A stretch of 64,000 nt of DNA from Chlorobiaceae bacterium (GTDB lineage: Bacteria > Bacteroidota > Chlorobiia > Chlorobiales > Chlorobiaceae). The notes under the pieces were generated by a model, which did not search any database, was not told the origin of the DNA, and saw only the letters and a program-made list of their open reading frames with translations. Made by a program: the position numbers and the translations under genes. Below, piece by piece: positions 23,750-27,149 of this stretch. Position 1 is the first letter of the stretch, and the number at the start of each line of letters is the position of its first letter. The stretch covers positions 62,001 through 126,000 of the forward strand of contig JAAXWS010000003.1 in assembly GCA_013334865.1 (NCBI GenBank), given 5' to 3'.

Positions 23750-24457
23750 TCAGTAGATGAGTTCGCCGCCGAACTCGCTTATCAGGAACCTGACCACCCC
23801 GTTCGTTTCGGAGAGCTCCTGGAACATGGTGAAAACGGTCTTCTCCTTCGTACACGCATCCCGTTCAGCATCGTACCTGACCTGCAACTTCAGCGGGAGG
23901 CGGTAGAATTCGCCCATCTCCTGTTCGAGGAGCGGCGTGTCGTGCAGGAGCTCCTCGAAGGAGAACTTCCTGCAGCAGCCCAGCACAACGAGGCCCTTGT
24001 GGCTGCAGGAGAGCAGTTCGCTGGCGTGCAGGTGCGAAACGAGCACCTGCATGCCCTTCCTGGTGAGGTGGTCGAGGAAACGGTGCCACTCGAGCTTGAG
24101 CTGGTCGAGGACGGCAACCGGAGGTTCGCCGTCGCCACCCTGCTGCTCGGCCAGGGCTTTGGCCGCAACAGGCATCAGCGGCTCGGGATTGTTGCCGAAC
24201 TTCGAGAAGGCCTGCTTCCATGAACCGAGGTCGAACGAGGAGGTAGCCTCTTCAACCTCCATGACCGCACGCACGGAACCGGATGGAGCCAGGGCTGGAG
24301 CCGACGGCGGAAGCGGAGGCTCAGGCAGCATCGAGGCCTGTGGAGGTGGCGGTGGTGGCAGGGTACTCCCTGCTGCCCCTGAAGTCCTTTGGGATTCCTG
24401 CCGCTTCACCGGGGGTGTCGCAGCACGGGGTGCACCTACAGGCTCAGCTGAGGCTTT
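23750..24457 (-). CDS. dnaX: DnaX tau-specific C-terminal part, reached by a -1 shift at the A10 tract
   Basis: This frame has no ATG start near its beginning and continues upstream, without a stop, to the A10 tract at 24455-24464. There a -1 slip joins it to the ATPase part encoded at 24436-25626. After the junction come a Pro-rich linker and about 150 residues (SFDLGSWKQAFSKF...LDQLKLEWHRFLDHL...) resembling the DnaX tau C-terminal region that binds polymerase. Read alone it would be an orphan; joined, DnaX is about 625 aa. A GTG at 24407-24409 could in principle start it, but has no ribosome binding site. Confidence 0.75.
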   Translation of the reverse strand, partial: KASAEPVGAPRAATPPVKRQESQRTSGAAGSTLPPPPPPQASMLPEPPLPPSAPALAPSGSVRAVMEVEEATSSFDLGSWKQAFSKFGNNPEPLMPVAAKALAEQQGGDGEPPVAVLDQLKLEWHRFLDHLTRKGMQVLVSHLHASELLSCSHKGLVVLGCCRKFSFEELLHDTPLLEQEMGEFYRLPLKLQVRYDAERDACTKEKTVFTMFQELSETNGVVRFLISEFGGELIY

Positions 24458-25626
24458 TTTTTTTCGTCCGCCGGAGCGGAAACGGAGCCCTGCCGGCCAG
24501 CGCCGGAAAGGTCGATCAGCTTGAGCAGGACGAGCTCGAAGCGGAACTGGTGCTCGGAGTAGAACTTCAGTTCGCGCTGCGTCTGCAGGAGCAGGTCGGT
24601 CATCGCCATGATCTCCTGCGGATCGAGGCGGGAAGCGTCGCGCTGGTAGCGCTCCTTGACCGGCTCGGGGCGTTCGATCAGCCGGCTCGATCGCAGGTTG
24701 TGGATGATGAGGAAGTTCCTGAAATGCTCGATGAGCTTTTCGATGAAATCCTGCTCGTCGTAACCGTTGCGGTTCACCATCATCGCCACTTCGAGCATCA
24801 AGGCGGCATCGCCTGAAGCGATGGCGTCGGTCACCATGAAGAAGTGCTCGTCGTCGATGTAGCTCAGCAGCTCGGCGACCTTTTCATAGCGGATCTCCCT
24901 TGCCCCTTCGGCATCGAGGGCGAAGGCGATCACCTGGTCGAGGATGCTCTGGGCGTCGCGCATCGAGCCCTGGGCCTTGCGGGCCACCAGCTGCAGGGCA
25001 TCGGCGTCGGCCCCGATGCCTTCTGCGTCGCAGATGCTCTGGAGCTGCCGCTGGATCTCCCCTATCGGGATCCGCTTGAAGTTGAAACGCTGGCATCGGG
25101 AGGCGATGGTCGCCGGAATCTTGTGCAGTTCTGTGGTCGCGAAGATGAAGATGGCATGCGGCGGCGGTTCCTCGAGCGTCTTGAGGAACGCGTTGAACGC
25201 CGCCGTCGAGAGCATGTGCACCTCGTCGATGATATAGACGCGGTAGCGACCCTTCTGCGGGCCGTACCGGACGTTCTCGCGAAGCAGGCGGATATCGTCG
25301 ACGCTGTTGTTGGAGGCCGCGTCGAACTCGGCGATGTTGAGGCTCGCCCCGGCATCGAAGTCGCGGCAGCTTTCGCACTCTCCGCAGGGTTCGGTCACCT
25401 CCTTCAGGTACACCGGGTCGTCGATCATCCGCTGGCAGTTGACCGCCTTGGCGAACACCCTGGCCGCCGTGGTCTTTCCTACCCCCCTCAATCCCGAAAA
25501 GATATAGCCGTGCCCCACCCTGCCCATCCTGAGGGAGTTCTGGATGGTACCGGTGATATGCTCCTGGGCGGTGATGTCCGCGAAACGGGATGGGCGGTAT
25601 TTTCGTGCTATGACCTGGTAACTCAT
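24436..25626 (-). CDS. dnaX: DNA polymerase III clamp-loader subunit DnaX (gamma form by standard decoding)
   Basis: 396 aa. N-terminal [16 protein letters not shown], Walker [12 protein letters not shown], a four-Cys zinc module containing CGECESC, the Walker B region with DEVH, and the arginine-finger region [11 protein letters not shown]. This is the clamp-loader ATPase core that loads the beta clamp. Standard decoding ends at TAG (24436-24438) eleven codons after ADE, giving the short gamma form. Slipping -1 at the A10 run opens the tau extension. The start overlaps the stop of the YihY-like gene by 4 bp (ATGA type), so the two are coupled. Confidence 0.95.
24455..24464 (-). promoter_or_regulatory. 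A10 slippery tract for programmed frameshift or transcriptional slippage in dnaX
   Basis: Ten consecutive A residues on the coding strand (GACG-A10-GCC). Zero-frame reading gives EKKKPQLSL and stop; the -1 frame stays open for 236 codons. The tract is followed by the palindrome CTCAGCTGAG. Comparable A-rich slippage sites in dnaX genes are known from E. coli and Thermus. Confidence 0.8.
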
Positions 25627-26924
25627 GGAACCCTTGATGTTGAATCTTGCAGGAGCTCGATCAGCGGCACGTGCAGGCCGCTCCTGAGCGCCTCGCCTAC
25701 CGTCTGCCGCACCTCCTGGAAGCGATCTCCAGCCGCACGTTCCGGTGCATCGGCTTCGTCTCGGGCCATTTCGGGCGGAAGCTTCATGTAGAGCTCGTAA
25801 AGGGTGAACGAATGCAGGTCGGCGGTGACCGCGAGGCCGCCGTCCGCCGTCATGTGGATGACGTTGCCCTGCCGCAGAAACTCGACGATACGGGTCAATT
25901 TACTACGGTCGGGGATATTTTCCGCCGCAAAGAGCTTTTTCATGTCCATAAAACGGCCGGCTTCCTGCGCGGACTGGATATGGCCGAGCACGGCGAGAAG
26001 GTCAGGGATTCCCTTGAGGGGATCGAACTCGCTGCCCGACTCGCAAGACGCGCTGAAGTATCCGAGGGAGTAGACGAATTCTGCGGCCGTCAGCACCACG
26101 ACCCATTCGAGGTAGATCCAGAAAAAGAGCATCGGCACGACCGACAGTGCCCCGTAGATCTGCTCGAAGGTCGCGAAGTTCGAAACGTAGAACGCGAACC
26201 ACCGCTTGGCGAGATCGAAAAGCACGGCGGCGAGCACGCCCCCCGCCAGGGCATGGGCGAACCTCACCTTGCGGTTCGGAACGAGCAGGTAAAGGAGGGA
26301 AAAGGCGAGGATCGAATTGATGAACGGAATGAACGAGAGCATGCGGGCCTTCATTTCAAGCAGCGGCCCCTGGGTAAAGATCTCGTACCAGACGAATGAG
26401 CTGGCAACCAGGCTGGTGCCGATGAAGAGCGGTCCGAGCGTAAGCACCGTCCAGTAGAGGGTGAATCCCTGCAGAAACTTGCGGGGGGCGTGTACCTCCC
26501 AGATGCCGTTCAGGGTGTGGTCGATCGTGGAGATCAGGAACAGCGCGATCACGATCAGGAATACGCCCCCGATCGTCGAGACGGACGAGGCTTTGTCGAT
26601 GAACTCCCAGAGATACGACTTGAGGAGCGCCCCCTGGGACGGCGCGAAGTTCTGGAACAGGAAATCGCCGATATAGAGCTTGAACGATGCGAAAAAGGGA
26701 AACAGCTTCAACATCGAGAGGATCACGGCCAGCAGAGGCACCATCGACAGGAGGGTCTGGAACGCCAGCGAACCCGCGCTCAGGAGGATCCTGTCCTGAA
26801 TGAAGCGCTTGCCCATGAACTTCGGCAACGAAGAGAGACTCCCCCACCCCACGTTCAGGTGGCCGGGGAATCCCGATGTCTTGAGGGTATCTTTCATGAA
26901 TTGATCGTCTTCGGATGCCTGCAT
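25623..26924 (-). CDS. YihY/BrkB-family (UPF0761) membrane protein
   Basis: 433 aa from ATG 26924 (GAAGGG upstream); ATG 26897 is an alternative. The N-terminal half holds about six TM helices with the family's features: [58 protein letters not shown] and [18 protein letters not shown]. The C-terminal about 150 residues are soluble, winged-helix-like ([24 protein letters not shown]). The old name ribonuclease BN is considered wrong; the function is not established. It is co-transcribed with dnaX through a 4-bp overlap. Confidence 0.88.
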
Positions 26925-27149
26925 CCGGACCCTTCGGCCCGGCCTGCCGGAAAGCGGCTCGTTCAAGGTAGGGAACCTGCAGCACAAAAAAAAGCCGCAC
27001 CCGGTCCTCGAGGCCGGACTTGAACGTCCGCATACAGGGGCGCGGTTGTTTTCAGCTGAATTGACTATATTCACAGTGACTTCTCATGTGCACGAAATCC
27101 CCCTGCGCCGAAAACCTGGTGCACCGGGTGAGACACTGGACAACCGACC

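Follow-up and report, generated by a model that had tools for sequence, protein, structure and literature searches.

The window, a 64,000-nucleotide stretch of contig JAAXWS010000003.1 from a Chlorobiaceae bacterium, belongs to a 2.42-Mb draft genome (44 contigs, 98% complete; the contig is G000:C26 in our numbering) whose closest named relatives are Chlorobiaceae MAGs and Chlorobaculum. It carries dnaX on the minus strand (Table 1). From its ATG, the zero frame reads into a run of ten A residues and ends shortly beyond it (GAA AAA AAA AAG CCT CAG CTG AGC CTG TAG), while the -1 frame stays open from the run to a distant TGA. A preliminary description of this DNA had given the same layout, from the ATG side through the run and the zero-frame stop to the far end of the -1 frame, and its coordinates were exact. 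At the other end of the gene, the dnaX ATG overlaps the stop of an upstream membrane-protein ORF as ATGA, and the two genes are probably translationally coupled.

Table 1. Features of the dnaX locus in the window, and other poly-A sites of the same genome and of related loci
Feature	Position	Strand	Description
Upstream membrane-protein ORF	25623..27074	-	stop overlaps dnaX start
ATGA overlap	25623..25626	-	membrane-protein ORF stop and dnaX ATG
dnaX start ATG	25624..25626	-	
dnaX zero-frame ORF	24436..25626	-	gamma-length, 396 aa; AAA+ ATPase, lid, domain III; PF13177, PF22608, PF12169, PRK14955
Putative A10 slippage tract	24455..24464	-	zero frame GAA AAA AAA AAG; kept in 79/79 family loci; stop distances by frame 16/8/702
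Third-frame stop TGA	24444..24446	-	in neither the zero nor the tau frame; 8 nt beyond run end
Zero-frame stop TAG	24436..24438	-	16 nt beyond run end
Tau C-terminal coding region	23750..24454	-	-1 frame; Pro/Ala-rich linker and ~120-aa folded domain; PRK14954 390-620
Tau stop TGA	23750..23752	-	end of the open -1 frame
Prophage portal/MuF junction	G000:C20:154096		L099/L388
Prophage portal/MuF junction	G000:C31:116544		L261/L397
Prophage portal/MuF junction	G000:C43:51302	-	L262/L396
Related portal/MuF loci			L305, L308, L310, L318, L367, L374, L381, L384-L392
ksgA/rsmA	L087:1439-2302 (G000:C16:11848-12711)		further loci L401-L430

Both parts of the gene were recognized by protein family models. 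The zero-frame product matched PF13177 (6e-40), PF22608 (6e-16) and PF12169 (1e-12) in Pfam, and in NCBIfam it matched both the 397-aa gamma model PRK14955 (6e-241) and positions 1-393 of the 620-aa tau model PRK14954 (4e-252). The -1 segment matched positions 390-620 of that same tau model (3e-74); because these are adjoining parts of PRK14954, the two pieces tile a known Chlorobi tau. NCBIfam therefore contains both forms, without an explanation of how both arise. The preliminary description took gamma to be the default product and tau to be reached by a shift, and this was right: the 396-aa zero-frame ORF is of gamma length and the tau tail lies in the -1 frame. Its further claim that tau requires a -1 slip describes just one of the possible routes, as one extra A in the mRNA, or two lost, gives the same frame. 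As far as can be read from its sequence, dnaX of the window is a functional gene of a Chlorobaculum-like green sulfur bacterium.

The tau tail was characterized further by alignment and structure prediction. Pfam, unlike NCBIfam, gave no match to the tail. With 34 homologues aligned, 15 columns of the tau segment are invariant. The predicted structure has a disordered linker followed by a confidently predicted domain of KH-like / DnaA-domain-I-like fold, and a structure search with this domain returned the same type of fold (Z 9.8, rmsd 2.0 over 80 residues). Compared with E. coli tau domain V, the matches were weak: a polymerase complex chain (5fku_E, E 0.26) and the tau domain itself (2aya, E 1.1). 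Homology of the tail to Chlorobi tau is thus strong by sequence, whereas the link in fold to E. coli tau domain V is weak.

A dnaX gene of this type has been reported before. Antonov et al. (2013; PMC3711429) described dnaX genes whose tau arises by recoding, in most cases at an A10 run, and Chlorobi are among their examples (the phaeobacteroides entry has 7 A). Their two-ORF genes and the window share a gamma in the zero frame, a tau tail in the -1 frame and a poly-A junction; the window itself, known here from sequence, shows no difference from them. Drawing on the analogy of Thermus thermophilus, these authors inferred transcriptional slippage for the A10 dnaX genes. The reversed roles of gamma and tau were mentioned by Atkins et al. 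(2016; PMC5009743), who added as an unpublished point that stimulators like those of E. coli may be present in Chlorobium phaeobacteroides. The layout was thus already published in 2013, and what is new here is the set of 79 family and 10 order loci, the interchange of frames and the evidence on mechanism.

The comparison of dnaX junctions covered 79 family loci, counting that of the window, together with 10 loci of other order members and 57 that fall outside the order. Conservation of the tract in other Chlorobi, which the preliminary description had put forward as a check, was confirmed: the run is present at all 79 Chlorobiaceae junctions, as A10 in 76, A9 in 2 and A11 in 1. Locus L024 has A10 at its dnaX junction. 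Of the 79 loci, 64 (62 with A10) encode tau in the -1 frame and the other 15 (14 with A10) encode it in the zero frame. Relatives with an in-frame gene lacking the tract had been envisaged as evidence against the reading, but all 15 zero-frame-tau loci keep the run. Both states occur among the window's near relatives: the -1 frame encodes tau in L005 (97% identical), whereas L006 (97% identical in the gamma region) combines a zero-frame tau with an unchanged A10 run. The reversal of roles relative to E. coli, as originally described, therefore holds for the window without being constant among its relatives. A tree built from gamma-region DNA (88 rows) implies that the frame state switched no fewer than 11 times, and well supported branches force 9 of these switches. 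Most of the switches arose through indels outside the run, which in Chlorobium lie upstream of it (phase-2 runs) and in Chlorobaculum lie between it and the tau domain; in three, the number of A residues differs (two A9, one A11). Across these loci, what is kept is the run and not the frame of tau.

The run exceeds what chance would leave, because AAA makes up only 13% of the Lys codons in the dnaX gamma region of this genus (AAG, 87%), yet the run occurs in every relative examined. Its AAA AAA AAG is always kept, compared with AAA in 14-56% of species at conserved Lys columns elsewhere in dnaX. Genome-wide, A runs of nine or more number about 36 in 2.4 Mb, as counted from a pattern search and 38 inspected loci. 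The stops that flank the run also form a pattern: in 79/79 family loci, each of the two non-tau frames meets a stop no more than 25 nt from the run, against 9.8% (gamma part) and 4.3% (tau part) at random positions of the same genes. The loci come from related species and are not 79 independent trials, but there is considerable variation in the sequence downstream of the run. To a ribosomal -1 shift alone, a third-frame stop is useless; it is expected instead if transcripts come in all three frames.

Outside the family, the run was found in two settings. The other members of the order had A9 or A10 with tau in the -1 frame in 10 of 10 sampled. Outside the order, tau was in the zero frame in 57 of 57 sampled, and 15 of these had A9 or A10 at the junction (L233, L234, L235, L239, L268, L275, L276, L279, L282, L283, L284, L295, L296, L217 and L220), and in most of these 15 both other frames close a short way past the run. 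This is the layout of T. thermophilus dnaX, in which programmed transcriptional slippage at A9 is known and which shares with the window a long A run, nearby other-frame stops and two tRNA-Lys. The window has an A run of at least nine on the sense strand (A10) and stops near the run in both non-tau frames. The two genes differ in that the zero frame of Thermus encodes tau and slipped mRNAs lead to gamma, whereas the zero frame of the window encodes gamma; the zero-frame-tau relatives (15/79) match Thermus in this respect. Judging from the 15 outside-order loci, Thermus-type gamma production probably occurs in widely separated lineages outside the order. The distribution also suggests, though it does not prove, that the long A run came before the split dnaX.

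We consider it likely that gamma and tau are produced from this one gene by RNA polymerase slippage at the A10 run, the best supported of the mechanisms weighed here. RNA polymerase would slip at A10, giving dnaX mRNAs with differing A counts. Transcripts copied faithfully, or whose net change in length does not bring tau into frame, would meet a stop just beyond the run and yield gamma, while transcripts with one extra A (or with +4, or -2) would bring the -1 frame into register and yield tau. That the slipping is done by RNA polymerase rather than by the ribosome, and the ratio of the two products, are both points that we infer. The following points favour transcriptional slippage: the run is kept while the tau frame interchanges, with stops in both other frames; no Shine-Dalgarno (SD) site or hairpin is conserved and tRNA-Lys with UUU and CUU are both present, as detailed below; and A9-A10 with in-frame tau, the Thermus layout, recurs in 15/57 loci outside the order.

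The main rival, which we regard as unlikely, has the ribosome make a programmed -1 shift at A_AAA_AAG; this is the mechanism of E. coli dnaX, except that gamma and tau would exchange roles. The preliminary description had offered ribosomal or transcriptional slippage; its transcriptional option agrees with our reading, and the ribosomal -1 shift is less favoured by the comparison. E. coli dnaX gives two products per gene, as dnaX of the window probably does, and like it contains A_AAA_AAG, but its tau is the zero-frame product and the shift, assisted by SD and hairpin stimulators, leads to gamma, whereas in the window the roles are reversed and in the family the stimulators are not conserved. 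The E. coli ribosomal shift heptamer does stand in frame in the window (GAA AAA AAA AAG), with tau in the -1 frame as such a shift would have it, and ribosomal shifting has been proposed for a few bacteria including C. phaeobacteroides (PMC5009743). The conserved element, however, is the long run and not the heptamer: within the order, the run is followed by T instead of G in L227, L229 and L232, and in zero-frame-tau Chlorobium with a phase-2 run, the heptamer is out of register.

Nor did the search for stimulators point to the ribosome. Conserved anti-Shine-Dalgarno pairing upstream of the run was not found family-wide, with strong sites in 13% of cases versus 11% at control sites. The anti-SD energies overall were slightly lower than at control sites (Mann-Whitney p = 5e-4), a point in favour of ribosomal shifting; the energy was -5.0 kcal/mol in the window versus -7.2 kcal/mol for the E. 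coli control, a locus that ended ~20 nt past the shift site and thus served as a control for SD only and not for the hairpin. Downstream of the run, RNA structure of the kind expected for a stem-loop stimulator was weaker family-wide than at control sites, and the hairpin in the folded downstream 60 nt of the window (z = -1.5) was not above controls. In addition, a ribosomal shift needs no third-frame stop, yet such a stop is conserved, and the flipping of the frame while the run stays also speaks against it. Finally, the genome encodes two tRNA-Lys, one UUU and one CUU; two tRNA-Lys have been linked to RNA-polymerase and not ribosomal slippage in Thermus, and a dedicated AAG-reading tRNA has been suggested to disfavour ribosomal slippage (PMC5009743). 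RNA polymerase slippage is thus the preferred reading, to which some ribosomal shifting may contribute given the A_AAA_AAG in the zero frame.

It is very improbable that the gene is a pseudogene or a phase-variable switch, in which replication slippage would switch tau between on and off states in different cell lineages. An A10 run is prone to mutation, and near relatives do differ in frame state, but the run length is 10 in 76 of 79 species despite frame changes that came mostly from indels outside the run. Moreover, both reading frames are conserved and open, and a replisome subunit is an unlikely candidate for phase variation. Less probable still is a sequencing or assembly error hiding a true run of A9 or A11 that restores one frame, a possibility raised in the preliminary description: homopolymers are error-prone, the genome is a 44-contig draft, and the two A9 loci and one A11 locus of relatives could be such errors, but an error at the A10 was ruled out by the same split in 64 of 79 independent species assemblies (several of them complete, 62 with A10), by the -1 arrangement in 10/10 other order members sampled and by its presence in finished genomes (PMC3711429).

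The dnaX genes of the family amount to a clean natural experiment for telling slippage by RNA polymerase apart from a ribosomal frameshift: tau moved to another frame at least 11 times, and neither the A run nor either flanking stop was lost. For annotation, the consequence is that gene callers will list these species with gamma only.

Long A runs were also seen at a phage gene junction. Three prophage portal genes of this genome (Pfam Portal_Mu or Phage_portal) end 1-16 codons after an A9 or A10 run, and a MuF-like head gene (PF04233) is open in the -1 frame through the run at those three junctions. We collected 68 non-redundant portal/MuF loci from IMG/VR and Chlorobiaceae genomes, this genome's three included: A9 or A10 lies at the junction in 32 of them, with MuF in the -1 frame in 18 and portal and MuF in one frame in 14, counts in which some bias is possible because KKK occurred in one of the six peptides used for the search. 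Across these loci, the background density of A>=9 runs was 0.008 per kb. No run of seven or more A was seen in characterised phage isolates with MuF relatives (L398-L400), and a literature search for slippage at portal/MuF junctions found no report. In its arrangement of run and reading frames, the logic of dnaX is repeated at these junctions, and the pattern suggests that portal-MuF fusions are made by slippage. We are evenly divided on a broader reading, that in this lineage long A runs serve as a frame-agnostic stoichiometry device: the polymerase would scramble the frame, the run and its stops would be selected, and the frame of the long product would drift, giving a short and a fused long form in dnaX and, independently, in the portal/MuF genes of its prophages and of many other phages. 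If the phage lead is true, poly-A slippage sets subunit ratios more widely than dnaX and IS elements suggest.

A further A run was noted in ksgA/rsmA. Among 30 Chlorobiaceae, the first ~20 codons of this gene are nearly invariant at the DNA level, synonymous sites included; the whole protein is about 63-90% identical. The start region has an A9-A11 run, encoding Lys-Lys-Lys before LGQNFL, and may represent an RNA element or a slippage site.
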